From a virus: a DNA stretch of 20,081 bases. Numbering within the stretch: position 1 is the stretch's first letter; each line of letters begins with the position of its first letter. The notes beneath the pieces were generated by a model. The model ran no database searches and had not been told where the DNA came from. It saw nothing but the letters and a program-made list of their open reading frames with translations. Location: positions 1 to 20,081 of IMG/VR virus record IMGVR_UViG_3300031841_005431; one strand, 5' to 3'. Position numbers and translations under genes: made by a program. Positions 1,351 to 20,044 of this stretch are shown here, piece after piece.

Positions 1351-3032
1351 TGCCTTATTATATTTCAATGGAACACCCGGATTGTAAAGGTGGCCACGCC
1401 GTAGTAAAAGAGGAAAATGACGAATTAATTACTTGTCACGAAACACACGAAGACGCTGAAAAACATTTAACCGCACTTAATATAGCTATGGCCGAAGAAG
1501 AAAAAAGCTTTGATCAAGATTTGGAAACCCGCCAAGTAGATTTAACCGCACCCGCATTTATGAAAAAGAATATGCAGCGCGGGTTAGATAATTTAAACCG
1601 TGCGGGCGACGGGTTAACACCTAAAACTATACGCGACGCTAGAAGTATTATTAGTAGCGGTAAAGTAAGTCCGGCTAAAGCAAAACTTATGTACGCGTGG
1701 CATCAAAGACATTTAAGCGATCTAAAAAGAGAAAAAAGCAACCCTAACGATAGCGATACGTGGCGCGCTAGCGATGTAGCGTTTTTATTATGGGGCAGTA
1801 ATCCGTGGACGGCACCTACGCAAGCGGGCGATTGGGCTAAAAGAAAAATAGACCAAATGAATAATGAAGATAGAAATAGCGACCCTAGTACGCCGGCACC
1901 TAAAAAAGACCAAATAAGCGGTAGCGATAAAAATAAAGAGGGTAGCGCTAGCGGTAAAAGTAATAATATTAAGTTTAATGAAAGTACCTTAAAAGCTATC
2001 CAAACAATAGTAGATGAACATAACGAAAGCGTTAAAGATATGGCTAGTTGGCGTAAATTAAGAATACCTACAGCTAAAGCCGTAGTACGTAGAGGGTTTG
2101 GCGCTTATAGTGGCTCGCATAGGCCGGGCGTTAGTAGGCAAGCTTGGGGTTTAGCTAGATTAAAAGCTTTTAGTTATTTATTACGTAACGATAGGCCACG
2201 TAATAGTAAATACGTTGGCGATAATGATTTACTCCCGGAAAGCCACCCTAGATTTAGTAAGCAAGAGAAAAAAAGCGACGCGTTTTATGACATTAAAGGC
2301 GACGCTATGTCATTAACAACTAATATATTAAATAATAAGGTTAGGATAAATAACGTGAAAGAAAAAGAAAACCGTAGCTTTAATTTAGCTAACGTAGAAA
2401 TAAGAGAAAAAAACGAGGGCGAATTAACTTATAGCTTTAGCGGTTACGCTAGCGTATTTAATAAGCCATACGGCGTAAGGGATAGTAAAGGTACTTACAC
2501 CGAAACTATTAAACCCGGCGCTTTTAAAAAGACACTACAAGAACAAGATGACGTAAGATTTTTAATTAATCACGACGGTATACCTCTAGCACGTAGTAGT
2601 AGCGGTACTTTAAAACTAGAAGAAGATGATTACGGCTTATTCGTTGAATGCGAGCTTGATCCCTCTAACCCTAAAGTTGCAGAAGTTGCTAGCGCTATGA
2701 AACGTGGCGACCTTAACGAAATGTCTTTTGCTTTTGCAGCCGTACGCGATGATTTTAATGGCGAAACACGGGACGTTCAAGAAGTTAGATTATTTGACGT
2801 AAGCGTAGTAACTTACCCGGCTAATAGTTACGCCGGCGCTACTTTAAGAGGTTTAGATATTTCCGAAAACCTTAAAGAATTAGTTGAAAGTAGAAGTGGC
2901 GAAAAAGCAGTTGAAGTTTTAGAGCAAATTATTAACCAACTAGATAAACCTAGCGAGGAAAATGAGCGCTCTAAAAGTAACCCTAAATTAGAAGTCTTAA
3001 AAATTAAGATGAAAAAAGACGGGTTACTCTAA
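1350..3032 (+). CDS. Prohead maturation protease with long N-terminal extension
   Basis: The C-terminal part (about residues 350 to 515) is an HK97-type prohead protease (S78/U35 family), which cleaves capsid and scaffold during head maturation. Catalytic candidates are His408 in LINHD and Ser459 in the MSFAF motif; FSGYASVFN and VVTYPANSYAGA are further family signatures. The protein is 560 residues, against about 180 to 250 for a stand-alone protease. The first 335 residues hold a short domain with HPDCKGGHAVV and TCHETHEDAEKH (1 to 50), a helical region with a YAWHQRHLSDL motif (about 60 to 170), a polar linker, and a second helical region ending in VGDNDLLPESHPRF. An in-frame GTG at 2355, preceded by AGGA, could start a short protease-only form. 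Protease call is firm; extension functions are unknown. Confidence 0.92.
   Translation: MPYYISMEHPDCKGGHAVVKEENDELITCHETHEDAEKHLTALNIAMAEEEKSFDQDLETRQVDLTAPAFMKKNMQRGLDNLNRAGDGLTPKTIRDARSIISSGKVSPAKAKLMYAWHQRHLSDLKREKSNPNDSDTWRASDVAFLLWGSNPWTAPTQAGDWAKRKIDQMNNEDRNSDPSTPAPKKDQISGSDKNKEGSASGKSNNIKFNESTLKAIQTIVDEHNESVKDMASWRKLRIPTAKAVVRRGFGAYSGSHRPGVSRQAWGLARLKAFSYLLRNDRPRNSKYVGDNDLLPESHPRFSKQEKKSDAFYDIKGDAMSLTTNILNNKVRINNVKEKENRSFNLANVEIREKNEGELTYSFSGYASVFNKPYGVRDSKGTYTETIKPGAFKKTLQEQDDVRFLINHDGIPLARSSSGTLKLEEDDYGLFVECELDPSNPKVAEVASAMKRGDLNEMSFAFAAVRDDFNGETRDVQEVRLFDVSVVTYPANSYAGATLRGLDISENLKELVESRSGEKAVEVLEQIINQLDKPSEENERSKSNPKLEVLKIKMKKDGLL
1501..1522 (+). repeat. Coding copy of the TTGATCAA element (protease)
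   Basis: The palindrome TTGATCAA at 1510-1517 lies in a 22-base stretch that matches 5944-5966 except for one inserted T. It encodes SFDQDL at residues 53 to 58 of the protease, at the junction between the N-terminal small domain and the next region. Confidence 0.6.
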
Positions 3033-5794: not shown

Positions 5795-5988
5795 TGCCTA
5801 AATTTAAAATAATAGGAACTAAAAAAATAGACGGTAAAGAGCCGGGTAGCACTATAACCATAGAAGACTTAGATAAAATTATTACACTTACTAAAGCCGG
5901 CCATATTACAGCTATTAGTAAAAAAGAAAATTTAAAAAAAGTTAAAAAAGCTTTTGATCAAGATTTAAAAAAAGATGAGGTTAAATAA
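5794..5988 (+). CDS. Small conserved-type protein before the tail tube genes
   Basis: A 64-residue protein. Residues 1 to 42 form a compact segment with a DGKEPGSTITIEDL turn and a helix leading to KAGHITAI, a pattern seen in small phage structural proteins. The last 20 residues are a lysine-rich helix carrying KKAFDQDLKKDE, which is encoded by one copy of the scattered TTGATCAA element. One-base overlaps on both sides place it in the same translational chain as the tail terminator and tube genes. No specific function can be assigned. Confidence 0.62.
   Translation: MPKFKIIGTKKIDGKEPGSTITIEDLDKIITLTKAGHITAISKKENLKKVKKAFDQDLKKDEVK
5944..5966 (+). repeat. Coding copy of the TTGATCAA element (64-residue protein)
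   Basis: The palindrome at 5954-5961 lies in a 23-base stretch that matches 1501-1522 apart from one extra T. It encodes AFDQDL starting at residue 53, ten residues before the C-terminus. Confidence 0.6.
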
Positions 5989-6713: not shown

Positions 6714-6887
6714 GCACTTCAACCGGCTATTTTCTGCCGTTCTGACGCGTTTATAATTCATAGCTTTACAAGTTACCGTACCTATAAATTAAATATATTT
6801 TTTTAAAAAAAACTTAAAAACTAAAGACTTATTTACGGTTTTAGTTATATACTGTCGTCATTAAACGAATTACTTAGGGAGGTAATT
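6714..6887 (+). promoter_or_regulatory. AT-rich promoter region of the moron-like insertion
   Basis: This 174-base gap precedes the two unknown genes. It contains a perfect -10 hexamer TATAAT at 6752-6757 and a second one, TATACT, at 6848-6853, which lies closer to the gene. Neither has a good -35 box at 16 to 18 bases. Between them is a run of T and A (about 6788-6816). The strongest ribosome site in the window, GGGAGG, ends six bases before the ATG at 6888. Promoter activity is inferred from the -10 boxes and from the independent layout of the unit. Confidence 0.45.
6870..6881 (+). repeat. Left arm of a 12-bp perfect inverted repeat
   Basis: TTACTTAGGGAG is the exact reverse complement of 7353-7364. 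It contains the GGGAG core of the ribosome binding site of the gene at 6888. The arms bracket the two-gene unit 495 bases apart end to end. No target-site duplication is visible outside them. Confidence 0.7.
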
Positions 6888-7187
6888 ATGAAAACAAAAA
6901 GAAGTTATAGCAAAGTTGCTATAGATATGTTTAATAGCGCGGACGATGTTAAAAATAATTTTAGTATGGTTTGGGGTTATAAAACTTTCGTAGAAGATAC
7001 ATATAAAGGCAAAGCTACTTTTAGATTAGAATTTATAAATAATGATTTTAAAACTAGCTTTATAGATTATAAATTTCCTAAAGGTTGGACTAAAAAAGAA
7101 ATGTTACGTAACGCTTTAGGTAATTTAGGTTTTAATACTTTATTAAATGATTTTGGCGAAGTAGTTTTATTAGATAGAAAATATTAG
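6888..7187 (+). CDS. Unknown 99-residue protein of the moron-like insertion
   Basis: I do not recognise this protein. It starts MKTKRSYSKVAIDMF and is basic, with no signal peptide, membrane segment or cysteine. It seems to be a small alpha/beta protein: a helix (VAIDMFNSADDVKNNF), strands with FVEDTYKGKATFRLEFI and SFIDYKFP, a helix with KKEMLRNALGNLGF and a final strand VVLLDRKY. The coding sequence is much more AT-rich than the flanks (about 25% GC in 6961-7140 by counting, against about 43% in 6181-6240), which fits separate acquisition. It has the best ribosome site in the window (GGGAGG). Its place between two tail tube paralogues, with its own control signals, suggests a moron gene that benefits a lysogen or the infection rather than a virion part. 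Confidence 0.75.
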   Translation: MKTKRSYSKVAIDMFNSADDVKNNFSMVWGYKTFVEDTYKGKATFRLEFINNDFKTSFIDYKFPKGWTKKEMLRNALGNLGFNTLLNDFGEVVLLDRKY

Positions 7188-7197
7188 GGGGTAAATA

Positions 7198-7350
7198 ATG
7201 ATATTAAAAGCAAAAACGCCTTTAGCTAAAACTATGTTAAAACACAAAGAAACTGCTAAAGTAAGCGAATTAGATATACATAACTTGATTAACTTTTTTA
7301 GCCATAAAAAAGAGTTTGCTAATCATTTTGAAATATTAAGCCGTAACTAA
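7198..7350 (+). CDS. Unknown 50-residue protein, second moron gene
   Basis: A short ORF with ATG at 7198, ten bases after the previous stop, preceded by GGGGG. The product is basic and mostly helical (MILKAKTPLAKTMLKHKET, then SELDIHNLINFFSHKKEF) with no membrane segment. It shares the low GC of the gene before it and ends 30 bases before a strong terminator, so the two form one short transcript. No family is recognised. A small regulator or partner of the 99-residue protein is possible, but this is only a guess from the pairing. Confidence 0.6.
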   Translation: MILKAKTPLAKTMLKHKETAKVSELDIHNLINFFSHKKEFANHFEILSRN

Positions 7351-7352
7351 TA

Positions 7353-7364
7353 CTCCCTAAGTAA
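7353..7364 (+). repeat. Right arm of a 12-bp perfect inverted repeat
   Basis: CTCCCTAAGTAA pairs perfectly with 6870-6881. It lies just after the stop of the 50-residue gene and before the terminator, so it would be in the 3' leader of the same message whose ribosome site it complements. Confidence 0.7.
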
Positions 7365-7380
7365 CAGTTACGTACGTATA

Positions 7381-7410
7381 AAAGCCGGGTTTAACGACCC
7401 GGCTTTTTCT
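7381..7410 (+). terminator. Strong Rho-independent terminator
   Basis: A perfect 10-bp stem (AAAGCCGGGT with ACCCGGCTTT) closes a six-base loop and runs into a T-rich tract ending TTTTTCT. It closes the moron-like unit and should also stop most read-through from the head genes, so the tail genes after it need a new promoter or antitermination. Confidence 0.92.
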
Positions 7411-7462
7411 TATGTCATACTACGAAAGTTTTGATCAACGCGACTTAAAATTTAATTATTAA
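7411..7462 (+). repeat. Intergenic ATGTCATA / TTGATCAA element, copy 1
   Basis: TATGTCATA (7411-7419), 11 bases, then TTGATCAA (7431-7438) stand directly after the terminator and before the short tail tube gene. Read from the ATG, a 16-codon ORF (starts MSYYESFDQRDL, stop at 7462) is open, but it has no ribosome site. TTGATC followed at 17 bases by AATTAT could also be read as a weak -35/-10 pair, which would suit the need for a promoter after the terminator. Related copies lie at 12322 and 16497. Confidence 0.6.
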
Positions 7463-7464
7463 GT

Positions 7465-7479
7465 AAAGGAGTTAAATTG
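7465..7479 (+). promoter_or_regulatory. AAAGGA-N6-TTG initiation cassette of the short tail tube gene
   Basis: The ribosome site AAAGGA is exactly six bases before the TTG start. The leader up to the start closely resembles that of the capsid gene, including the TTAATTA before it and the TTAAATTG around the start. Confidence 0.7.
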
Positions 7480-7884
7480 GCAAAGTTTGTATTAACTGAC
7501 GCTAGCGTAACTATTAACAGCGTGGATTTAAGCGACCACGTTGCTAGTGTTACTTTAGATATTACGGCTGATGAAGTTGAAGAAACTGCGTTCGGTCAAA
7601 CTTTTAAAAGTAGATTAGGTGGCCTTAAAGACGGTACCCTAAGTATTGATTTCCAACAAGATTTCGCTGCAAGCGAAGTAGACGCTACATTGTGGCCACT
7701 TTTAGGAACAGTAACTACTTTTGAAATTAAACCAACTAGCGATGCAGTATCTAGTACTAACCCTAAATATAGTGGTAGCGTACTAGTAAACCAACACCAA
7801 CCCGTAGCTAACGGCGTAGGTGAATTAGCAAGTTTTTCCGTAAGTTTTCCAACTAGCGGAACTATAACTAGAGCGACTTCTTAG
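7477..7884 (+). CDS. Major tail tube protein, short form
   Basis: The 135-residue product begins MAKFVLTDASVTINSVDLSD and has the same core as the long form at 5988 (ASVTLDITADEVEET and KSRLGGLKDGTLSIDF). It lacks the C-terminal surface domain. It uses the AAAGGA-N6-TTG start seen at the capsid gene and has a codon mix like that gene, both pointing to very high expression and so to the main tail tube subunit. It is followed after one base by the tail chaperone gene, the standard order in siphophages. It stands downstream of a terminator and a candidate promoter element, so its transcription may be controlled separately from the head genes. Confidence 0.85.
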   Translation: MAKFVLTDASVTINSVDLSDHVASVTLDITADEVEETAFGQTFKSRLGGLKDGTLSIDFQQDFAASEVDATLWPLLGTVTTFEIKPTSDAVSSTNPKYSGSVLVNQHQPVANGVGELASFSVSFPTSGTITRATS

Positions 7885-7885
7885 T

Positions 7886-8152
7886 ATGTCCGCGATGCAA
7901 GGGTTACACCAACTCACACTTGTAATTGAGGACGGTACTAAAAAGGAAGTAACGTTAAGGCCTATAGATTTTGTTGCGTTAGAGCGTAAGTTTGGTTCAC
8001 GACCGGCAAGCGATCTAGAAAAGCTAAGTTTTGAGGAGTTAATGTATTTATGTTGGCACGCTAGTAAGCGTACCGGCGTTACAGAAGACTTTGATAAATG
8101 GCTTAATACCGTAGCAAGTATAGACGGTATAGGTGGCGAAAACCCGGAGTAA
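7886..8152 (+). CDS. Tail assembly chaperone, short (G-like) product
   Basis: An 88-residue protein between tail tube and tape measure genes, the conserved place for tail assembly chaperones, which coat the tape measure until the tube polymerises. The N-terminal strands (LHQLTLVIEDGTKKEVTLRPID) and helices (FVALERKFG, SFEELMYLCWHASKRTG, EDFDKWLNTVASI) fit this family. The reading frame in the -1 position stays open past the stop up to the gp10-like gene, as expected for a chaperone made in two lengths. ATG follows the tail tube stop by one base. Confidence 0.82.
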   Translation: MSAMQGLHQLTLVIEDGTKKEVTLRPIDFVALERKFGSRPASDLEKLSFEELMYLCWHASKRTGVTEDFDKWLNTVASIDGIGGENPE

Positions 8153-8298
8153 CCGGTGGCTATTATTTAGACTTAATAGCCGAAGTTAGTTTAGCCGCCG
8201 GGCTTAATCCTATGGAAGTAGCCGAACTACCGCTACCTATGTTTTTAGCGTTACAACAAGCTTTACAAAAAAGAGCGGAAGAATATAAGAATGGCTAA
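8140..8298 (+). CDS. Frameshift extension of the tail chaperone (T-like part)
   Basis: The -1 frame relative to the chaperone gene is open from 8107 to the stop at 8296-8298 and has no good start of its own. A -1 slip at GAA AAC (8138-8143) would continue as K-P-G-V-T-G-GYYLDLIAEVSLAAGL and end in RAEEYKNG, giving a product of about 136 residues. The helical segment with NPMEVAELPLPMFLALQQAL resembles the T part of siphophage chaperones. The slip site is not a classical XXXYYYZ heptamer, and the only nearby structure is a small CCGG-AGTAA-CCGG hairpin, so the exact site is uncertain. The extension overlaps the next gene by 8 bases. Confidence 0.7.
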   Translation, partial: KPGVTGGYYLDLIAEVSLAAGLNPMEVAELPLPMFLALQQALQKRAEEYKNG

Positions 8299-8887
8299 AG
8301 GTATAACTAAAACTACTAGCGGTACGGGTATAGCCGTAGAGGGCTTAAACGATACTATTAGGGGTTTACGTGATTTATCGCAAGGTAGCGAAGTACGTAA
8401 AGCTTTACGTGGTTTACATAAAGAAATTTCCAAAGAAGTTGAAAGCCAAACTCGTATAGCCGCTTTAAAGCAAAGCGTAAACGGGCGTCCGGCACCTAAA
8501 AGAACGCAGGGTGCTAAAGGTTATGTAGGCGGCGGTACCGACCGTAGCGCTTACTTAGACATACGTAAAACTAATAAATTCGTACGTAACTTAGAATTTG
8601 GACGCGATTATCAATTTTTAAATTTTTATACCCGTAAGCAAGCTACCGGTATGAACGTAAGCGCTAACGCTACCGGTATATTTTTTCCAGCGGATCAACT
8701 TAGACGACGCGTATACAAAAAGTGGGTCGGCAATAAATGGCGTAGTACGGGCGTATTTCCGGAAGGGGCTAAAATACACGGCTACGTCGCCGAGCCAACT
8801 ATAGCTAAGGCCGTACCGGGTATAACGGAAGATTATAGCGATAAAATGTTTGAAACAGTTAAAAAAGCAGTAAAGGAAAATAAATAA
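8291..8887 (+). CDS. HK97 gp10-like tail or neck completion protein
   Basis: This 198-residue basic protein has the pattern of gp10-like proteins: an N-terminal segment with GLNDTIRGLRDLSQG, a helix with VRKALRGLHKEISKEVESQTR, a loop region, then a NLEFGRDYQF strand similar to the EFG motif of that family, and a C-terminal helix (YSDKMFETVKKAVKE). Such proteins usually lie before the tail tube; here the gene is between chaperone and tape measure, so another minor tail role is possible. Its ATG sits inside the end of the chaperone extension, and its stop overlaps the tape measure ATG (TAATGG). Confidence 0.55.
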   Translation: MAKGITKTTSGTGIAVEGLNDTIRGLRDLSQGSEVRKALRGLHKEISKEVESQTRIAALKQSVNGRPAPKRTQGAKGYVGGGTDRSAYLDIRKTNKFVRNLEFGRDYQFLNFYTRKQATGMNVSANATGIFFPADQLRRRVYKKWVGNKWRSTGVFPEGAKIHGYVAEPTIAKAVPGITEDYSDKMFETVKKAVKENK

Positions 8888-11091
8888 TGGCGGCGCAAAG
8901 CACTAAAACATTAAGGTTTGAGTTTTTAGCCGATACTAAAAAGTTTTTAGGCAACATAGGTAAGGTCGGTAAAAAGTTTAACGACTTAGGCGCCGAGATG
9001 AAACAAACCGGCGATAATATAAATAAAGCCGTAGCCGGTATAGGAATTGCTGCAACGGCTGCAGCCGGTAAGTCGTTATTAGCCTTTAGAGATTTTGAAA
9101 CCGGTATGAACGAGGTATTTACTCTTTTACCGGGTACTAGCCAAGAAACTTTTGATCAAATTAATAAAGATGTTTTAAAGCTATCTAAAAGCATAGGTAA
9201 ACTCCCGGAAGATGTTATCCCGGCGTTATATGACTCATTATCAGCCGGCGTACCACCGGATAACGTTTTTGCTTTTTTAGAAACCGCTAATAAATTAGCC
9301 GTAGGTGGTGCTACCGAATTAGGTATAGCGGTAGACGGTTTAACTACCGTAGTAAACGCTTTTGGTAGTGATGTAATTAGCGTAGGCGAGGCGTCCGATA
9401 TTATCTTTACGGCCGTTAAAGGTGGTAAAACTACCGTAGAGCAATTATCTAAAGCTATGTTCAACGTTGCACCGATTGCAGCGTCTATGGGTATAGAGTT
9501 TGGTAACGTTACGGCTGCCGTTGCTACCTTAACCGCGTCCGGTACTCCTACTAGCGTAGCTATGACGCAAATAAGGGCTGCGTTATCGGAATTAGCTAAA
9601 CCTACTACAAAGATAAGTCAACTATTTATGGAACTTACCGGCCAAAGTTTTGAGGAGTTTATAGCTAGCGGCGGCGACCTTAAAAAAGGTTTCGACATAA
9701 TTGCAAAAGGTGCTAAAGATAACGGTAAACCTTTAGCCGAGTACGTAGGGTCGGTCGAGGCTCTCGGTGCTATTCAAACCTTAACCGGTAAAGGTAGCGA
9801 AAAATTTGCTAGCGAGTTAGTAGCGGCAGCTAACGCAGTAGGTGCAACCGATGCAGCTTTTGAGCAAGGATCACAAGGTATAGGTTTAGTTTTAGAAAAA
9901 TTAAAAGCTAGTTTTCAAGTATTACAAATAGAAATAGGCCAAAAGTTAGCTCCGATACTTATTAGCGCTATAGATAATATCCAAACTAAGTTTAAAGAAA
10001 TTCAACCCGGCTTACAGGCTTTCGTAGATAACGTTAAAAGTTTTTTTGCTAGCGATGTAGTCGTTAATACTATAAATAAATTACGCGACGCTTTTAATAG
10101 TTTACAAGAACGTTTAGCGCCGGTAATAGATAAAATAACTGCTTTTTTTAGAGCTAACCCTAAAGTAGCTTTTACGTCGTTAGCGGTCGTTATAGGCGGT
10201 ATTTTATTAGCTAGCGTAATAAGTTTAGCTAGTGCTTTTGCAGCCTTATTTAGTCCCGTTACGCTCATAATAGGGGCAATAGCAGCGCTTGCGGGTGGTT
10301 TTAGATACGCTTACGACAATGTTGAAGTATTTAGAAACTTTATAGATAATACTATGTCGTTTTTAAAAACTTTATTTAGTAACTTTATAGCATTTTTTCA
10401 AAGCGACGGTTTCGTAGCAGCATTTAATAAAGGTTTAGATTTTGTTAAAGCACAATTTGAAAATTTAAAAACAGTATTTAGCGGGGTAGTTAATTTTATA
10501 AAAGCTTTATTTAGTGGCGACGTAAGTTTAGCCGTAGATAGCTTAAAAGATATTTTTAAAGGTTTATTATCGTTTTTCAAAAATAATTGGAATTTATTTG
10601 AAACTTTACGCGATGTATTTATAGGCGCGTTAACTAAAGCTAAAGATTTTATTTGGCCTAGATTAAAAGAATTTGGTAAAGGCTTTATCGAAACTATTAC
10701 TACCGTATTAAAAACTAGTGCCGGCGTCGTACTAGAGGGCGTTAAGTTTGTATTTAATAAAGTTATAGATAAAATTAACGGCTTTATTAATGGTTTAAAT
10801 AGCGGGCTTGCTTTTAGCTTTTTTGGAATAGATATTGATCCACCCGATATACCTAACATACCAAAATTGGCCAAAGGTGGTATCGTAACTAAACCTACTA
10901 TCGCTATGATTGGCGAGCAAGGTGCCGAAGCGGTAGTACCGTTACCCTCGAGAGTTGGCGGGGGTTTTGGCCAAACACCTACTATTAATTTAACCGTTAA
11001 CGCGGGCTTAGGTACCGACGGTGCGGAAGTAGGCCGTATAATAGTCGAGCAAATCGAAAAATATAATAGACGTAATTTAAGGTTCGTATAA
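8887..11091 (+). CDS. Tail tape measure protein
   Basis: A 734-residue protein that sets tail length and is ejected with the DNA. At about 0.15 nm per residue this predicts a tail of roughly 110 nm. The N-terminal helical region (residues 1 to 60) is followed by a TP901-type tape measure core (about 65 to 370) with FRDFETGMNEVFTLLPG, YDSLSAGVPP, ALSELAKPTTKISQLF and VEALGAIQTLTGKG. A hydrophobic stretch at about 427 to 472 could enter the host membrane. Near the C-terminus is the common LAKGGIVTKPTIAMIGEQGA segment (residues about 662 to 681). No lysozyme or peptidase motif is seen. It overlaps both neighbours by one base (TAATGG). Confidence 0.95.
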   Translation: MAAQSTKTLRFEFLADTKKFLGNIGKVGKKFNDLGAEMKQTGDNINKAVAGIGIAATAAAGKSLLAFRDFETGMNEVFTLLPGTSQETFDQINKDVLKLSKSIGKLPEDVIPALYDSLSAGVPPDNVFAFLETANKLAVGGATELGIAVDGLTTVVNAFGSDVISVGEASDIIFTAVKGGKTTVEQLSKAMFNVAPIAASMGIEFGNVTAAVATLTASGTPTSVAMTQIRAALSELAKPTTKISQLFMELTGQSFEEFIASGGDLKKGFDIIAKGAKDNGKPLAEYVGSVEALGAIQTLTGKGSEKFASELVAAANAVGATDAAFEQGSQGIGLVLEKLKASFQVLQIEIGQKLAPILISAIDNIQTKFKEIQPGLQAFVDNVKSFFASDVVVNTINKLRDAFNSLQERLAPVIDKITAFFRANPKVAFTSLAVVIGGILLASVISLASAFAALFSPVTLIIGAIAALAGGFRYAYDNVEVFRNFIDNTMSFLKTLFSNFIAFFQSDGFVAAFNKGLDFVKAQFENLKTVFSGVVNFIKALFSGDVSLAVDSLKDIFKGLLSFFKNNWNLFETLRDVFIGALTKAKDFIWPRLKEFGKGFIETITTVLKTSAGVVLEGVKFVFNKVIDKINGFINGLNSGLAFSFFGIDIDPPDIPNIPKLAKGGIVTKPTIAMIGEQGAEAVVPLPSRVGGGFGQTPTINLTVNAGLGTDGAEVGRIIVEQIEKYNRRNLRFV

Positions 11092-12323
11092 TGGCTACGC
11101 CGGAAGTACGAGTACGCTTAGGCTTTACCCCTAATACATTTACCCTAGACGACTTAGTAAGGGGTGTTTTAGATACCGGGCAACTCGGTGGCGCCGTTAC
11201 ATTAACCGACGTTACTAGCGACGTCCAAAACGTAGCTATAAGTCGCGGGCGATCTAAAGATTTAGATAGCTTTTATACCGGTAGTTGCGCTATTAAATTA
11301 ATAAATAACGAACGTAAATACGAAAATACTAATACTTCTAGTCCTTACTATCCCGGTATAGAGCCATTTATAATTATGCACGTCGACGCTACTACCGACG
11401 GCGGTAGTACATACGAGGACTTATTCGTAGGTTTTGTAGCCGACATTAACTTAACTTACCCGGATAGTAATAACTCTTTTGCTACGTTTACCGGGTTTGA
11501 CGCTTTTATGAAAATTAATAATACCGAATTAGTTAATGCTAGTTTTTCTAGTACCGATAGCGGTAGCTTAATAAATAATATTTTAAGTAGTAGTACGGTT
11601 AAATTTAGCGCTGCTAACCGTGATATAGAAACCGGTATTAGTACTATGCAAGCTTTAAGCGGGGTAACCGATAATACGTTAAACGTTTTACAAACTATAG
11701 AGCGCAGCGAAAATGGACTTTTATTTATGTCTAAAAGCGGTAAGTTAACTTTTAAAAATAGACATACTACTTTTCCGTCTAGCGCGTCTATGACTTTTAG
11801 CGATGACGGTAGCGACATACCATATTCAAGCGTAGATTATATAAACGATGATAACGAAATTTATAACGTTATTAACTTAACCCGTACGGGCGGTACTACG
11901 CAAAGCCAAGAAGATACCGGGAGCCAACTTAAATATTTAATACGTACTTTAACGCGTACCGGTTTATTAAATGATAACGATACCGAAGTTAATGACGCTG
12001 CTTTATACCTATTAGGTAAATATAAAGACGCTTTATTACGGTTTGATAATTTAGAAGTTAATTTAAAAGATATTAGTACTAGTAGCCAAAATAGTATTTT
12101 AGCTAGCGAAGTAGGGGATATAGTTTTAATAGAACTTACGCCACCCGGTAGTGGTTCGCCTAGTCAATTAACTAGTTTTGAAATATTAGATAGTATTACT
12201 TATAGCGTTACGCCTGATACTTTTAAAGTAACTTATAAATTAAGTAAAGCAGAACAACAGGCCTTTATGCGTTTAGATAATTCAATATTCGGTCATTTAG
12301 ACGAAGATAAGTTGGGTTATTAA
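11091..12323 (+). CDS. Minor tail protein, tail hub or baseplate-like
   Basis: This 410-residue beta-rich protein directly follows the tape measure, where distal tail and hub proteins lie. An N-terminal part (residues 1 to 130) with VQNVAISRGRSKDLDSFYTG, CAIKLINNERKYEN and YEDLFVGFVADI resembles the ring domain of hub proteins. The middle contains a helix with DNTLNVLQTIERSENGLLFM, typical of the gp27-like fold, and the end has a SFEILDSITYSVTPDTFKVTYKL strand pair. The assignment as hub is by layout and pattern and is moderately sure; an actinophage-type generic minor tail protein is the cautious label. The stop overlaps the ATG of the intergenic element at 12323. Confidence 0.72.
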   Translation: MATPEVRVRLGFTPNTFTLDDLVRGVLDTGQLGGAVTLTDVTSDVQNVAISRGRSKDLDSFYTGSCAIKLINNERKYENTNTSSPYYPGIEPFIIMHVDATTDGGSTYEDLFVGFVADINLTYPDSNNSFATFTGFDAFMKINNTELVNASFSSTDSGSLINNILSSSTVKFSAANRDIETGISTMQALSGVTDNTLNVLQTIERSENGLLFMSKSGKLTFKNRHTTFPSSASMTFSDDGSDIPYSSVDYINDDNEIYNVINLTRTGGTTQSQEDTGSQLKYLIRTLTRTGLLNDNDTEVNDAALYLLGKYKDALLRFDNLEVNLKDISTSSQNSILASEVGDIVLIELTPPGSGSPSQLTSFEILDSITYSVTPDTFKVTYKLSKAEQQAFMRLDNSIFGHLDEDKLGY

Positions 12324-12364
12324 TGTCATATTGCGTTGATCAAGATTTATTAAGGATATTATAA
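12322..12364 (+). repeat. Intergenic ATGTCATA / TTGATCAA element, copy 2
   Basis: ATGTCATA (12323-12330), five bases, then TTGATCAA (12336-12343). The ATG overlaps the upstream stop as TAATG, exactly like real gene junctions here, and opens a 13-codon ORF (MSYCVDQDLLRIL, stop 12362-12364). This copy could therefore be a translated minigene or the shrunken remnant of one. The GATCAAGATT part is shared with 1512, 5956 and 17645. TTGATC with TATAAA 18 bases on would also pass as a weak promoter. Confidence 0.6.
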
Positions 12365-12368
12365 AACT

Positions 12369-12818
12369 ATGCCTAGTGGATTTAAAACGTTCGTTACCGG
12401 TGAAGTATTAACGGCTAGCGATGTAAATAATTATTTAATGGAACAAAGTATATGCGTATTTGCGGACGCTACGGCACGCGATGCAGCTATTACTAGTCCA
12501 GAAGACGGTCAATTCGTATTTTTAACCGGGACTAGTACTTTACAATTTTACGGATCAAGTACGTGGAATAACTTTATAGGCGAGGGCGATATTACCGGCG
12601 TTACTGCCGGGTCGGGTCTTTCCGGTGGTGGTACTAGCGGTGCTGTAACCCTTAACGTAGATATAAACGGACAAAGTACGGCAACCGTTGCGGGTACTGA
12701 TGAAGTATTAATTGGCGACGTAGATGATAGTAATAATATAAAAAAGACAACAGCGCAAGATATTGCAAACCTAGCACCCGCAGGCGCTACGGTAGGTTTA
12801 ATTTTAGCGTTAGGATAG
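12369..12818 (+). CDS. Tail tip or fibre protein
   Basis: A 149-residue protein. Residues 1 to 80 form a segment common in phage tail tip proteins: GFKTFVTGEVLTASDVNNYLMEQ, FADATARDAAITSPEDGQ, then FYGSSTWNNF. Residues 81 to 130 contain GDITGVTAGSGLSGGG and GAVTLNVDINGQ, the glycine-rich repeat-like pattern of tail fibre shafts. The protein is short for a fibre, so it may be a shaft piece or adapter to which the proteins encoded next attach. The spacing to the ribosome site AAGGA is long at 12 bases. Function is inferred from motif and place. Confidence 0.68.
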   Translation: MPSGFKTFVTGEVLTASDVNNYLMEQSICVFADATARDAAITSPEDGQFVFLTGTSTLQFYGSSTWNNFIGEGDITGVTAGSGLSGGGTSGAVTLNVDINGQSTATVAGTDEVLIGDVDDSNNIKKTTAQDIANLAPAGATVGLILALG

Positions 12819-12833
12819 AAAGGATATACATTG
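12819..12833 (+). promoter_or_regulatory. AAAGGA-N6-TTG initiation cassette
   Basis: Third occurrence of AAAGGA exactly six bases before a TTG start. It decides the start of the 109-residue gene and suggests that this product is also made in large amounts. Confidence 0.65.
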
Positions 12834-13160
12834 GCGGAAAGTTATAAAAATGCGTATTTAGATATTACTTCTAGCGCGCAAACACTTTACACTAATTCAA
12901 GCGGTGGATCAGGGATTATCGTTACCTTACGCGTTACTAATGTTGACGGCGCTACGGACGACACTATAACTGCAGACGTTATTGACGGAACGAGCGGTAA
13001 TGCAAGAATTGCTTATACTTTAAGCGTACCGGCCGATACTACAATAGAGTTAGCAGGTACTTCTAAAATATTTTTAGAAAATGGCGACTATATTCAATTA
13101 CAAGGCGGTAATGCGTCCGGCGATCTTGAGGCTTTTGCAAGTATTTTAGAAATAACCTAA
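12831..13160 (+). CDS. Small beta-sandwich virion protein
   Basis: The 109-residue product starts MAESYKNAYLDIT and is made of alternating strands with short turns (TLYTNSSGGSGIIVTLRVTN, DTITADVIDG, ADTTIELAGTSKIFLENGDY). The GDYIQLQGG turn and the overall plan resemble the small protein at 1096, suggesting a related fold used in decoration or fibre proteins. It shares the TTG start cassette and the codon style of the capsid gene, so it is probably abundant in the particle. Its exact place on the virion is unknown. Stop is ten bases before the next ATG. Confidence 0.7.
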   Translation: MAESYKNAYLDITSSAQTLYTNSSGGSGIIVTLRVTNVDGATDDTITADVIDGTSGNARIAYTLSVPADTTIELAGTSKIFLENGDYIQLQGGNASGDLEAFASILEIT

Positions 13161-13170
13161 AGGGGTAATT

Positions 13171-13797
13171 ATGCCGTATGGTTATTTAGGACAAAATACG
13201 CCAAACCAAACCGTATCTAATAGCGGTGTTTTTTCTATTACCGACGTAGCTGATTTAGATAAGCAAGGTAAATTTGGCGGCAGTTTAGAATTTATTGAGG
13301 AAAAAACTATTACTGCAAGTTCATCTGCAATCTTTACAGATATAAAAGAAACAAAATATGATGTTCATTATTTAACTATTGAAAATTATGCACCTTCAGT
13401 TGACGGAACTGCTTTGGCTTGCAGGTTTTTTGAAAGTGGTGTTGAGGAAAGTGGGGCAGTTTATAGATATGCACTTAATTATGGTAGTCCTAATGTTACT
13501 GTTGGTTTTGCAGAGGAAAAATCAACAGGTATTGCACAATTTTTTTTGACTGCGTCAGCAGGTAACGGAACTAATGAAGTAAGTAATTCATATAATTATT
13601 TTTATAATCTCGGTAATAGTTCTATGTATAGTTATTTCACTAATCAATCAACTACTGTAAGACCTGCAGGTAATTATATTTTTGCTTTTGGTGGTGCGAC
13701 ATTACCGCAAGCGAGTTTAGTGGATCAAATAAAATGTTTTGTAACTAGTGGTACTTATTCAGCAACTTTAAAACTTTACGGGATAAAACAAATTTAG
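13171..13797 (+). CDS. Tail array protein A (receptor-binding candidate)
   Basis: This 208-residue protein is the first of six small beta proteins. The N-terminus YGYLGQNTPNQTVSNSGVFS matches that of the gene at 14818 (YGYVGVNIPDQ, then AGIFS) and is probably the anchoring segment. The rest is beta-rich and ends in LKLYGIKQI, an ending shared by most of the array. From about 13311 the codon style changes to more TCA, GCA, ACA and GGA than in the first 45 codons, which suggests that a conserved anchor is joined to an exchanged head domain. A good ribosome site (AAAGGGG) precedes the ATG. A role in host binding is inferred from place and variability. Confidence 0.68.
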   Translation: MPYGYLGQNTPNQTVSNSGVFSITDVADLDKQGKFGGSLEFIEEKTITASSSAIFTDIKETKYDVHYLTIENYAPSVDGTALACRFFESGVEESGAVYRYALNYGSPNVTVGFAEEKSTGIAQFFLTASAGNGTNEVSNSYNYFYNLGNSSMYSYFTNQSTTVRPAGNYIFAFGGATLPQASLVDQIKCFVTSGTYSATLKLYGIKQI

Positions 13798-13798
13798 T

Positions 13799-14314
13799 AT
13801 GAGTAATTTACGATTAATAAATGAAACTGAAATAACTTCTAGTGTTTCCTATATAGATGTTAATAATATATTTTCAGCAGATTTTGATACTTACTGTATA
13901 GAATATTCGACCGTAGGTAGTGCAGGTAATGCGTTAAGAGGTAATTTACTTAATACTTCAGGTGTTTTATTAAATGGTAGTGATTATGATAACGCTATGA
14001 TTAATCAAATTGATAGTGGCGCATTTACAGAAAGTAGAAATCAAGGCGATACTCGTTGGGAAAGAATTTCAATACACTCGCCTTATGGTCAAAACGCAAC
14101 CACTTGGATTTTTAATCCCTATACGGCTAACTATACTTTCGTTATAACTCAAGGAGTTACATATTATAACGCAGCTGGTATAGGTACTTACGCACAAAAA
14201 CAAGCCGGCGTATATAAACAAACTACTTCAATAGGTGGTATAAGATTTACACCTGCAAGTGGAACTTTAGATAGTGGTATTATTAGAACTTATGGATTGC
14301 GAGTTGATAGCTAG
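13799..14314 (+). CDS. Tail array protein B
   Basis: A 171-residue beta protein that starts one base after the stop of protein A. It begins MSNLRLINETEITSSVSYID, has SRNQGDTRWERISIHSP and ends in IIRTYGLRVDS. It pairs best with the gene at 15435, which has ERNQGGAFRFTIYNP in the same place and a KIYGIKS ending. No anchor segment like that of A is present, so it may join the tip through A. The final base of its stop codon is the first base of the GTG of the next gene. Function unknown; a tip or receptor-binding role is inferred. Confidence 0.65.
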   Translation: MSNLRLINETEITSSVSYIDVNNIFSADFDTYCIEYSTVGSAGNALRGNLLNTSGVLLNGSDYDNAMINQIDSGAFTESRNQGDTRWERISIHSPYGQNATTWIFNPYTANYTFVITQGVTYYNAAGIGTYAQKQAGVYKQTTSIGGIRFTPASGTLDSGIIRTYGLRVDS

Positions 14315-14817
14315 TGGCGGGTAAATTATTACAGGTAGCAACGGAAACCGTAACTAGTTCGGTTTCGTCTGTTACTTTAACAGGAATAGATAGTGATAAC
14401 GTTTATATGTTAGCTATGAACGGTGTTGATCCTAGCGGGTCAACGGACGGCTATTTAAGAGTAACTGTAAGTGGTACTGCTGATACTACGGCAAATTATG
14501 ATTATGCTTATAAAGGATTACGAGCCGATACGACATTTAGTAATTTATCAACTACAAATCTTACTTATTGGAATTACGTTGCAAATTGGTCAACAGATAC
14601 GGTCGGTAATGCAATCGTATATTTATATAATTTTAATAATTCTAGTGAATATTCTTTTATAACTAATGAAAGTGTTACTACTTGGAGTATTGGCGGTCTT
14701 TTAGCTCCAACCGGTGGGGCGGTACATACCGTTGCACAAAGTTGTGACGGTATAGAATTTAGTTATGCTAGTGCAACTATAGACGGCGGAACGTTTACTC
14801 TTTTTAAGGTGTTATAG
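14314..14817 (+). CDS. Tail array protein C
   Basis: A 167-residue beta protein with a GTG start that overlaps the preceding stop by one base. It is clearly related to the gene at 15957: both have SGTADTTANYDYAY or SGTADSTAIYDYAF at similar positions, then NFNNSSEYSFIT or NFPTDSEYSLIT. The ending TLFKVL differs from the YGI/YGL ending of the other five. No signal peptide or membrane segment is present. The next gene begins directly after its stop. Confidence 0.65.
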   Translation: MAGKLLQVATETVTSSVSSVTLTGIDSDNVYMLAMNGVDPSGSTDGYLRVTVSGTADTTANYDYAYKGLRADTTFSNLSTTNLTYWNYVANWSTDTVGNAIVYLYNFNNSSEYSFITNESVTTWSIGGLLAPTGGAVHTVAQSCDGIEFSYASATIDGGTFTLFKVL

Positions 14818-15435
14818 ATGAGTGATAAAACTAATAAATACGGTTACGTAGGGGTAAATATACCGGATCAAAATAAACTTGCTAACGCGGGTATTTTTAG
14901 TGTTAATGAAATAAATGATTTAGTTGCTGATGATAATTGGTCTAGCATAGAAGACGCTTTAGTATTTTTAGCTAGTGAGGAAATTACCGCGTCAACTTCA
15001 TCAATAGAATTTAGAAACTTAGATTTTTACCAAACTTATTTTTTAGTATGGTCGCAATTATCTACTCCTAGTTCAGCAAGAATGACTATGCAATTTTATA
15101 TATCCGACACCTTAGATACTACTACCGGCGCATATAGAGCAGTTCACGAAAATATTGATAGCAACGGATCATCTGCACAAGTACAAAATAACGGTAGTAC
15201 CTCTATAATGGCTACGGGTCAAGGTATTACGAGTGGTTATGGTTATATTTATCAGGGTTATTATAGTTCCGGTTATAGACAATATAATCATCACGCGGTT
15301 AATAGATACACTAGATTAACTGCTAATTATGGCGGTGGACATTCTTCTACTGACGGATTTATAGACGGTATAAAATTAAATTTTAACGCTACTACGACAG
15401 GTTATGCAGCAATTTACGGAATAAGGAATACATAA
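14818..15435 (+). CDS. Tail array protein A' (paralogue of A)
   Basis: This 205-residue protein repeats the layout of protein A: anchor KYGYVGVNIPDQ, the GIFSVNEINDL segment, a strand EEITASTSSIEF that matches EKTITASSSAIF of A, and the ending AIYGIRNT. The middle (residues 90 to 180) differs strongly and is rich in Gly, Tyr and Ser (SGYGYIYQGYYSSGYRQYN), as is common in receptor-binding tips. It begins the second A-B-C set. The stop overlaps the next ATG (TAATGG). Confidence 0.68.
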   Translation: MSDKTNKYGYVGVNIPDQNKLANAGIFSVNEINDLVADDNWSSIEDALVFLASEEITASTSSIEFRNLDFYQTYFLVWSQLSTPSSARMTMQFYISDTLDTTTGAYRAVHENIDSNGSSAQVQNNGSTSIMATGQGITSGYGYIYQGYYSSGYRQYNHHAVNRYTRLTANYGGGHSSTDGFIDGIKLNFNATTTGYAAIYGIRNT

Positions 15436-15953
15436 TGGCAGGTGCTTTACATTTATTAAACTATACCGATACCACTTCGGTATCTGCGGTTGCTTTTCCA
15501 ACAATATTTAAAGATAATCCTCTTTACGAAAATTTTTTGATAATTGGTGAATTTGATAGCGATACTAATTATACCGGTGCAAGAATACGTTTATATAATA
15601 GGGACGGTAACGCTTTTGTTCCAAACAATAGGTGGAATACGCATTTTCTTTCAAGTGGTGCTGCCGAAAGCGTATCAAATAGTAGCAACTATACGAATGG
15701 TATAGCCTATGTAACTCAAAACACTATTGAAAGAAATCAAGGCGGTGCGTTTAGATTTACTATTTATAACCCTTTAGCTAGTAGGGAAACAACAATAGAA
15801 ATGCAAAGTGCCGGTAGTAATGGAACGAGTTTAGTTACGGCAGGTTTTGGTGGTAGTTATTCTAGTCAAAGCTATACGGGTTTTTATTTACAAGAAAGTT
15901 TATCCGCTAATGCTTTTAGAAGTAAGGTTAAAATATATGGGATCAAAAGTTAA
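15435..15953 (+). CDS. Tail array protein B' (paralogue of B)
   Basis: A 172-residue beta protein starting MAGALHLLNYTDTTSVSAVAF and ending RSKVKIYGIKS. It aligns with protein B over the NQGG region and the C-terminal strand, with low overall identity. The central part is Asn- and Ser-rich. ATG overlaps the stop of A' and the gene ends three bases before C'. Function inferred as for the other array members. Confidence 0.65.
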   Translation: MAGALHLLNYTDTTSVSAVAFPTIFKDNPLYENFLIIGEFDSDTNYTGARIRLYNRDGNAFVPNNRWNTHFLSSGAAESVSNSSNYTNGIAYVTQNTIERNQGGAFRFTIYNPLASRETTIEMQSAGSNGTSLVTAGFGGSYSSQSYTGFYLQESLSANAFRSKVKIYGIKS

Positions 15954-15956
15954 ATT

Positions 15957-16481
15957 ATGAGTGCGTCGTTAGTAAAAGTTTCGCAAACTAATATAGTTTC
16001 AGGCGATAGTTCAATTACTATTACCGGGTTAGATAACGAATTTGAAGTGTATTTTATGCAGTTAAATAATATTAAACCTTTAACTGACGCAGCTAATTTA
16101 TATATGCGTGTTACTCAAAGTGGTACTGCCGATAGCACCGCTATTTATGATTACGCCTTTAATGAGGCTTTTGATAATTCAGCAACTATAATCGATACGG
16201 GTTACCAAAATAATACAGTATTTATTATTGGTCATAAATTGACAACAGATAGTACACACCCGTTTAATTCAAGTTTATATTTATTTAATTTTCCAACCGA
16301 TAGCGAATATAGTTTAATTACGCAGTTTTCCACGTCCGTTGATAGCGACGGTAGGAATAGGTCTTGGATAGGTGGCGGTCAATATAAAGGTAATAGTATT
16401 GACGACGGCGTATATCTTTATTTAAGTACTGGAAATTTTGATAGCGGACAAATAAATTTATACGGACTACGTAAAAGTTAA
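15957..16481 (+). CDS. Tail array protein C' (paralogue of C)
   Basis: A 174-residue beta protein that shares with C the SGTAD-T/S-T/A-YDYA segment and the NF..(N/D)SEYS(F/L)IT strand, the clearest pairwise match in the array. It ends INLYGLRKS, like A, B, A' and B'. It is the last member of the second A-B-C set and is followed by the third intergenic TTGATCAA element. The GTG/ATG tiling of the array breaks here. Confidence 0.66.
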   Translation: MSASLVKVSQTNIVSGDSSITITGLDNEFEVYFMQLNNIKPLTDAANLYMRVTQSGTADSTAIYDYAFNEAFDNSATIIDTGYQNNTVFIIGHKLTTDSTHPFNSSLYLFNFPTDSEYSLITQFSTSVDSDGRNRSWIGGGQYKGNSIDDGVYLYLSTGNFDSGQINLYGLRKS

Positions 16482-16496
16482 ACCATTTTAAAAATA

Positions 16497-16525
16497 TATG
16501 TCATATTACATTTAGTTTTGATCAA
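16497..16525 (+). repeat. Intergenic ATGTCATA / TTGATCAA element, copy 3
   Basis: TATGTCATA (16497-16505), 12 bases, then TTGATCAA (16518-16525). The spacer is one base longer than in copy 1, and the frame from the ATG stops after five codons (MSYYI), so this copy is not a working minigene. TTGATC is followed at 17 bases by AATTAT, as in copy 1, but that box overlaps the next start codon. The gene after it has no clear ribosome site. Confidence 0.6.
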
Positions 16526-16544
16526 CTTACTTATACTTTAAATT

Positions 16545-16844: not shown

Positions 16845-17117
16845 TTGACCGAACTTCAAAAAATGCGGGCTATAGCTTTAGAGCGAGCCGGTAATAAATG
16901 CGAGTGGCCTATGTGCAATAATTTTGATCAAAAATTAGAAATGGCGCATATACACGGTATAGGTATGGGCGGTAACCCTAAACGTAAATACGATATAAAT
17001 AACGTAGCTATGTTATGTAAATTACACCACGATATTTACGACGGCCGTAGTATATCACTAGCAAAAAAGGAGTACCGCGTACTGTTAAAATCATATTTAG
17101 ATTATGAGCGACAATAA
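16845..17117 (+). CDS. HNH endonuclease
   Basis: A 90-residue HNH nuclease with the full motif: Cys19 and Cys24 (KCEWPMC), His35 in LEMAHIHG, Asn52/Asn53 in DINNVAMLC, Cys58 and His61/His62. The two cysteine pairs suggest a structural zinc. In tailed phages such proteins often act with the terminase in DNA packaging, while others are homing enzymes; here no intron or insertion is seen. The place, after the tail genes and before the membrane proteins, is away from the terminase, which may mean that the packaging site is not near the portal side only. The TTG at 16845 directly follows the previous stop; ATG at 16863 is an alternative start. Confidence 0.88.
   Translation: MTELQKMRAIALERAGNKCEWPMCNNFDQKLEMAHIHGIGMGGNPKRKYDINNVAMLCKLHHDIYDGRSISLAKKEYRVLLKSYLDYERQ
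16924..16931 (+). repeat. Coding copy of TTGATCAA (HNH gene)
   Basis: The palindrome encodes FDQ at residues 27 to 29, between the first cysteine pair and the catalytic LEMAH motif. The 3' flank (AAAATTAG) differs from the other copies. Confidence 0.5.
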
Positions 17118-19277: not shown

Positions 19278-20044
19278 GTAGACGAGGAAGTAGTAAGTGG
19301 TACTTAGAGCATTGGAAACACGCTTTAGGTAACACGGAAGATTTAGTAATAATAAACTTTAACGGTACCGGTAGGGCGCAAATTAATAAAGACGTTTTAC
19401 CGGCTTTTACGTTATTAAATATGTGTTTAGTAGAGGACGATTACATAACGCAGCGTAAAACTACCGGCGGTTTTAATTATAGAAAAATAGCTAATACCGA
19501 TAGGTATAGCTGCCACGCGTACGGTTTAGCCGTAGATATAAATTGGCAACTTAACCCGGTAACCCGCGACGGTAGTATAAAAACTAATTTTAATGAAAGT
19601 ACTATTAATAAAATACTTAATATTAAAACGCAAGAGGGTTTACCTATTTTTAGGTGGGGCGGTAACTATAACAGTTATAAAGACCCTATGCACTTTGAAG
19701 TTTATGTAACACCCGAAGAACTTAATAAAGGGATAGTAAGAGAAAATTTTGATCAACGCGAATATATTAAGTTAGGTTTAGCAGCTAAACCTTTACGTAA
19801 AGGCGATAAAGGTAAAGGCGTAAAGTTTATACAGGAACTTTTAAACGAAGTTAATAATTCTAAATTAGTAACCGACGGCGACTTTGGTAGTTTAACGCAG
19901 GCCGAAGTTTTAATGTTTCAAAAAAAAGCCGGGCTTATAGAGGACGGTATAGTAGGTTCTAATACCTACGCTAAATTAATGGAATTTAAGAATGCTAAGC
20001 TAGATAAAAAGAAAGGTAATAATGGCAAATATAAAATCGAGTAA
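19274..20044 (+). CDS. Endolysin: M15 peptidase with peptidoglycan-binding domain
   Basis: A 256-residue lysis enzyme. The N-terminal domain is an M15 (VanY / L-alanyl-D-glutamate type) peptidase with zinc ligands His81 and Asp88 (SCHAYGLAVDIN) and His140 (PMHFE), with Glu142 next to the last ligand. A linker (about residues 150 to 176) is followed by a PG_binding_1 domain (about 178 to 245) with LRKGDKGKGVKFIQELL, DGDFGSLTQAEVLMFQ and DGIVGSNTYAKL. It has no signal peptide, so it needs a holin; four candidates lie upstream. The linker carries a copy of the TTGATCAA element. The last 20 codons overlap the next gene. Confidence 0.92.
   Translation: MSRRGSSKWYLEHWKHALGNTEDLVIINFNGTGRAQINKDVLPAFTLLNMCLVEDDYITQRKTTGGFNYRKIANTDRYSCHAYGLAVDINWQLNPVTRDGSIKTNFNESTINKILNIKTQEGLPIFRWGGNYNSYKDPMHFEVYVTPEELNKGIVRENFDQREYIKLGLAAKPLRKGDKGKGVKFIQELLNEVNNSKLVTDGDFGSLTQAEVLMFQKKAGLIEDGIVGSNTYAKLMEFKNAKLDKKKGNNGKYKIE
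19747..19761 (+). repeat. Coding copy of the TTGATCAA element (endolysin linker)
   Basis: Fifteen bases, TTTTGATCAACGCGA, are identical to 7429-7443 in the intergenic copy 1. They encode NFDQRE at residues 158 to 163, exactly between the peptidase and peptidoglycan-binding domains. Confidence 0.6.

Follow-up and report, generated by a model that had tools for sequence, protein, structure and literature searches.

Three intergenic places of one phage genome carry the same box followed closely by the same palindrome, which raises the question of whether these form a single regulatory element or two, and of what they do. The genome is IMG/VR virus record IMGVR_UViG_3300031841_005431, analysed over its whole length of 20,081 bases (hereafter the window). 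An earlier note, made from its letters alone, had described the two-part element and read it either as a family of late promoters or as a family of minigenes. The repetition is genuine: ATGTCATA followed by TTGATCAA starts at 7412, 12323 and 16498 with gaps of 11, 5 and 12 bases, and the nine-base forms of the box begin at 7411, 12322 and 16497 as described. It is not due to chance, as there are no further matches in the window and 0 in 100 dinucleotide-preserving shuffles. Intergenic sequence measures about 1 kb (4.9% of the window), and not well below 1 kb as had been supposed. Our preferred reading, to which we give a probability of roughly 0.7 on sequence grounds, is that the three places are late promoters built from an activator box, 22 bases and a TANNNT hexamer, and that the palindrome is a separate, dispersed GATC-centred site that would be bound by a phage protein.

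Relatives were gathered via the second major tail protein and are referred to by G and L numbers. The aligned instances comprise a 12-base box ATGTCATAYTAC, 22 unconserved bases and a -10 hexamer TANNNT, which lies exactly 22 bases past the box in 28 of 29 distinct instances from relatives (the exception has 21). Because the first 8 box bases served as the search key, conservation of the box is selected by construction, and the independent evidence is therefore confined to the -10 and its exact distance. A motif search in relatives, a check that had been proposed with the original description, finds the same box at the corresponding places of close relatives, ahead of the second major tail gene and of the genes at 12369 and 16545. 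Further support comes from a scan of 11 genomes with a leaderless pattern (AT[GA][TA]C, 7 bases, d bases, TANNNT, 5-8 bases, ATG, with d from 18 to 26), which returned 20 matches at d = 22 (a few probably by chance) as opposed to 1 to 6 at each remaining value of d. At the copy 1 place AT[GA][TA]C stands exactly 34 bases before TANNNT in 46 of 60 upstream stretches as scanned; the failures that we inspected were stretches one base short or belonging to a different gene, and true variants were seen in L158, whose box is degenerate, and in L197, which has ATACC. Distant relatives keep the geometry with ATAACACACA or ATAACGTATA as the box, and the phage from the Candidatus (Ca.) Actinomarina single cell AG-919-G14 shows the same geometry at the copy 1 and copy 2 places with ATATCACACACA and ATGACACACGTA.

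With ATG 12369 as the predicted start, the box spans -46 to -35 and is centred near -41. No -35 element is conserved, and the 22-base spacer shows little conservation among the aligned instances. The layout is that of a class II activator-dependent promoter with a predicted start. The exact spacing across relatives thus lends good support to the earlier proposal of a late-promoter family with an activator bound at the box. The second half of that proposal did not hold, as TTGATCAA is a palindrome that recurs genome-wide independently of the box and is replaced in relatives, and not a promoter hexamer. Similarly, AATTAT does lie 17 bases past TTGATC in copies 1 and 3, but the hexamers proposed as -10 elements have to give way to the conserved TAAAAT, TATTAT and TATACT, each of which begins exactly 22 bases past its 12-base box (Table 1). 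In copies 2 and 3 the -10 sits 6-7 bases before the ATG, and their transcripts would therefore be leaderless. Copy 1 has a predicted start near 7458, and its leader contains GGAG before TTG 7477. A phage WhiB protein, whose gene is carried by G001-G004, G007 and G009, is a candidate activator. That all copies precede tail genes is roughly correct: copy 1 lies ahead of a major tail protein gene, copy 2 ahead of a gene with a weak tail-fibre match and copy 3 ahead of one whose protein has an unknown PHROG function.

Two other explanations of the box have to be weighed at this point. The first takes it not for an activator site but for the -35 element of a sigma factor, either alternative or encoded by the phage, as might be suggested by a conserved box upstream of the -10 whose spelling differs in distant clades. 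Elements recognised by sigma factors usually lie 16-19 bases from the -10, so that 22 bases is long for such recognition; TANNNT is the housekeeping -10, and no sigma-factor family was matched among the proteins scanned, though not every protein was scanned. We consider this quite unlikely. The second, already raised by the earlier note, sees in the copies short translated peptides starting MSY, ATGTCATAY being read as the start codon and those after it. In the window, copies 1 and 2 are indeed open for 16 and 13 codons, and copy 2 overlaps the upstream stop (TAATG) in a frame that is open in several relatives. However, half of 14 copy-1 variants and 4 of 5 copy-3 variants, as scanned, have a frame that ends early, in most cases within 5 to 9 codons, and the copy-1 box of distant relatives usually starts with ATA, not ATG. 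It is the 22-base distance to TANNNT that is conserved and not the peptides past MSY, which makes minigenes highly improbable.

The palindrome behaves differently from the box. TTGATCAA occurs 8 times in the window (0.04 in shuffles) and is its top 8-mer by the ratio of observed to expected counts (8 vs 0.076). Five of these copies lie inside genes and three are the intergenic promoter copies; the two halves therefore need not be one element. While both parts do co-occur three times, they are better described as two independent modules than as the single two-part element of the earlier note. Every box-bearing relative repeats its own GATC-centred motif, in different spelling and at about one per 2 kb. 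TTGATCAA is found 17 times in G002, CTGATCAG 10 times in G004, the decamer GACGATCGTC 7 times in G005 and TAGATCTA 9 times in G006. G007 has the 12-mer TTCTGATCAGAA 13 times, and CTGATCAG accounts for 15 of its only 22 GATC. The motif of G001, GTTGATCTAA, is asymmetric and occurs 13 times with no clear orientation bias (8 vs 5), and G003 and G008 contain dense GATCTA (84 and 68). In G002, G004 and G007 this amounts to 10 to 17 sites per 29-31 kb. A null of shuffled codon order predicts 0.00 to 0.95 in-gene copies where 4 to 15 are seen (window, G002, G004, G005, G006, G007), with single motifs at 9 vs 0.00 for TTCTGATCAGAA, 8 vs 0.13 for CTGATCAG and 4 vs 0.03 for GACGATCGTC; each motif type is represented by few genomes.

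Restriction avoidance, in which a host enzyme purged the other GATC contexts and left TTGATCAA as the remainder, is very unlikely in view of these counts. CATG is absent from the window and from G001-G009 and many NGATCN contexts are missing, but purging cannot yield 13 exact 12-mers (TTCTGATCAGAA) or 7 decamers (GACGATCGTC) with over-regular spacing and in promoter spacers. Moreover, GATC is enriched, not avoided, in G003 (about 2-fold) and G008.

We then compared the positions of the sites. Between the window and G002, which share the motif at 87% identity, 7 of 7 alignable sites are unchanged; relative to G001 or G004 most sites are altered, e.g. at copies 1 and 2, where CTGATCAG stands in place of TTGATCAA and both sides differ. 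Non-promoter positions are nevertheless shared within 120 bases between genomes with different palindromes (25 vs 9.5 +/- 3.0, with 0 of 1000 random shifts as high), an approximate strength, as the pair count treats related genomes as independent. Sites are spaced more regularly than random in G007 (P < 5e-5), G005 (P 0.003) and G002, and without clear regularity in the window, G004, G006 and G001. In six genomes, 14 of 67 sites fall inside the 22-base promoter spacers, where 0.21 are expected. The palindrome centre lies 5 to 16 bases past the box at no fixed place, which fits a repressor operator and not an activator site. The spacers of copy 1 in G005 and G007 and of copy 2 in G006 have no palindrome. 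Such palindrome-free spacers in some members and in distant relatives indicate that the palindrome is not part of the core promoter and is not needed for its function. No iterated GATC palindrome was found in the Ca. Actinomarina single-cell phage or in distant relatives.

To which protein do these sites belong? TTCTGATCAGAA occurs once in 42 Actinomarina-genus genomes. For TTGATCAA the counts are 25 to 81 per genome of 0.6-1.1 Mb, a density far under that of the phage. The palindromes are thus scarce in the sampled hosts and were not copied from them, although the true host of the window phage may differ. A palindrome mirrored from the host was rejected, as no counterpart was seen in these 42 genomes. 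A methyltransferase as determinant of the palindrome is disfavoured as well, since its sequence shows no recognition block varying between motif types. The methyltransferase gene is present in G001, G002, G005, G006 and G007 and absent in G003, and L290 and L291 have it together with no motif.

These observations bear on a HIP1-like explanation, in which a DNA methyltransferase (or mismatch repair) makes or keeps an iterated palindrome with no transcription regulator involved. All palindrome variants have a GATC core, several of these phages carry a methyltransferase gene, and palindromes swap between related genomes, as alternate HIPs do (PMC4390886). The missing variable recognition block and the motif-free L290 and L291 speak against it, as do the strong enrichment in promoter spacers, which would not be expected, and the lack of a host-side counterpart. 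We regard this explanation as somewhat unlikely. Silencing sites of the L5/Bxb1 stoperator type, at which a repressor blocks initiation at promoters and elongation inside genes, would account for about 10 to 17 sites per 30 kb that are spread genome-wide, occur at promoters and have a lineage-specific sequence, like those of Cluster A phages (PMC6550527, PMC9283540). Here, however, the sites are palindromic, or unoriented in G001, and the majority lie inside genes. Integrase is absent from the 11 records searched, including the circular-complete G001 and G009, and a repressor was not recognised among the proteins examined, many of which have no known family. Stoperators thus appear unlikely.

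A phage-encoded binding protein would be the simplest explanation of the palindrome. In the preferred reading of two modules, an activator would bind the box centred near -41 at all three late promoters in the absence of a -35 element. Transcription from copies 2 and 3 would start at the ATG itself, and copy 1 may restart late transcription past the terminator of a small variable cassette. TTGATCAA would be the site of a phage-encoded protein whose specificity shifted between lineages, with the sites following genome-wide; bound in a promoter spacer, this protein may act as an operator-bound repressor or modulator. A bolder version, possible but doubtful, would place one protein-binding site per about 2 kb genome-wide, in genes and in most late promoters. 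A change of specificity would then have re-spelled the sites around a constant GATC core with positions kept, so that each phage would bear a private self-mark not shared with the host chromosome.

Several points weigh against the two-module reading. The set of 29 instances was pre-selected for the box, so that only the -10 and its distance count independently, and a weak AAGGA about 12 bases before the copy-2 ATG could serve translation of a leadered transcript. The octamer of the window and G002 is short, and some of its in-gene copies could reflect codon preference (F/V-D-Q). The palindrome is missing from some promoters of several members (G001 copy 1, G003, G006 copy 2) and from the distant relatives. 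Finally, the searches revealed neither a repressor nor an integrase, and most other early proteins could not be assigned to a known family.

Should the two-module reading be correct, it would define at the sequence level the late promoters of marine actinobacterial phages that are abundant but uncultured: a box, 22 bases and TANNNT, often with a leaderless start. The close genomes would also form a natural series in which the spelling of a dispersed DNA site changed repeatedly, allowing the study of a DNA-binding protein and its sites changing together. If a protein that binds the palindrome can be identified, its natural variants come already matched to their target sites.

Table 1. Predicted promoter elements, terminator and palindromes in the window.
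Feature	Position	Strand	Remarks
Intrinsic terminator	7380..7407	+	12-pair stem, 6 GC pairs, T-rich tail; directly upstream of copy 1
Copy 1 box ATGTCATACTAC, activator-type	7412..7423	+	conserved here in relatives, 22 bases before TANNNT
Copy 1 palindrome TTGATCAA	7431..7438	.	in spacer; relatives here have CTGATCAG, AGATCT or no palindrome
Copy 1 -10 TAAAAT	7446..7451	+	positions 35-40 of aligned instances
Copy 2 box ATGTCATATTGC	12323..12334	+	pattern match and aligned instances
Copy 2 palindrome TTGATCAA	12336..12343	.	in spacer
Copy 2 -10 TATTAT	12357..12362	+	6 bases before ATG 12369; same place in G001-G010 and L270
Copy 3 box ATGTCATATTAC	16498..16509	+	pattern match and aligned instances
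Copy 3 palindrome TTGATCAA	16518..16525	.	in spacer
Copy 3 -10 TATACT	16532..16537	+	7 bases before ATG 16545
Possible fourth promoter, intragenic: ATGACATTAAAG, 22 bases, TAATAT	2287..2326	+	protease gene
Dispersed palindrome	1510..1517	.	in prohead protease gene
Dispersed palindrome	5954..5961	.	35 bases before next gene
Dispersed palindrome	9152..9159	.	in tape measure gene
Dispersed palindrome	16924..16931	.	in small gene (90 aa)
Dispersed palindrome	19749..19756	.	in endolysin gene

The terminator that had been noticed ahead of copy 1 was recovered with its 12-pair stem. The intragenic box of the protease gene has counterparts with the same spacing in G002, G003, G004, G006 and G008. Two extra putative promoters of G007 (contig of L158, oriented) lie at 1457-1496 and 18349-18388. 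Both have a variant box ATGTCGGATAAA, a spacer that contains the palindrome and a predicted leaderless start, and one of them lies directly before the small terminase gene. Upstream of that gene G001, G002, G006 and G007 have a ParB-like/methyltransferase gene, which G003 (contig of L134) does not. The small cassette at 6714-7380, between the two major tail proteins, has its own Shine-Dalgarno sites and terminator, and its genes differ in relatives (G001, G007). At 13171-16481 six adjacent tail-region genes apparently represent three gene types in two sets (MPYGYLGQN../MSDKTNKYGYVG.., MSNLRLINE../MAGALHLLN.. and MAGKLLQVA../MSASLVKVS..), as if a three-gene tail module had been duplicated, with a similar arrangement in G001 and G007. 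Short palindromes are also depleted: 30-57 CATG are expected from codon-order shuffling in the genes of the window and G001-G009, which have none, G003, G008 and G009 have almost no CGCG or none at all, and the same is true of GCGC and TCGA in G009. These losses look like strong restriction avoidance.

The proteins of the window constitute an HK97-type siphophage set with portal, major capsid, two major tail proteins, tape measure, exonuclease and endolysin. The nearest named relatives of the capsid are mycobacteriophages at about 40% identity, and a relative at 67% is found in the single-cell genome Ca. Actinomarina AG-919-G14, from which a phage has been reported before (PMC7771536). These capsid relatives point to a marine low-GC actinobacterium as the host, likely Ca. 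Actinomarina or a close relative among the tiny marine actinobacteria. The lack of an integrase in the 11 records makes the phage group look virulent, and a lysogenic repressor accordingly less likely. G001 and G009 are circular-complete, the two end overlaps being one of 77 and one of 124 bases, and the phage is probably a virulent siphophage with a genome of roughly 30 kb. Neither known RNA families nor tRNAs were found in the window, and there are no near-identical phage records.

Among known systems, phage Mu offers a late promoter that depends on an activator, C, and has a class II site. The promoters described here resemble this type in their inverted-repeat-like box near -41, the absence of a -35, the standard -10 and their place ahead of tail and late genes. 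They differ in that the box sequence is unrelated, two of three promoters are predicted to be leaderless, and the phage is an uncultured actinobacterial one with only a candidate activator. The Ca. Actinomarina AG-919-G14 phage has a related capsid protein (67%) and the same promoter geometry at copies 1 and 2, but neither the box spelling nor an iterated GATC palindrome. HIP1 of cyanobacteria is likewise an iterated palindrome with a GATC core that is replaced by another palindrome in some relatives (PMC4390886); in the window, too, the octamer with the strongest over-representation is an iterated palindrome. Unlike HIP1, the motifs described here belong to phage genomes and not to a cyanobacterial chromosome, concentrate in promoter spacers, are in part longer and reach about 350-570 per Mb in contrast to 1000-2000. 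HIPs are chromosomal and tied to a cognate methyltransferase; among the phages a methyltransferase gene is present in several genomes, and its sequence shows no motif-dependent block. Operators and stoperators of the L5 clade and Cluster A number in the tens per genome and are dispersed, lineage-specific and in some cases at promoters, the L5 sites being 13-bp, asymmetric and oriented (PMC6550527, PMC9283540). The phage palindromes are similar in their dispersal, lineage specificity and partial location at promoters, but differ in being palindromic, mostly intragenic and of no clear orientation; neither a repressor nor an integrase was found with them. L5 stoperators and HIP1 palindromes are analogues, and the phage palindrome is a member of neither family. 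The box module may be classed with activator-dependent late promoters, and the palindrome, with its putative binder, with dispersed regulatory sites.

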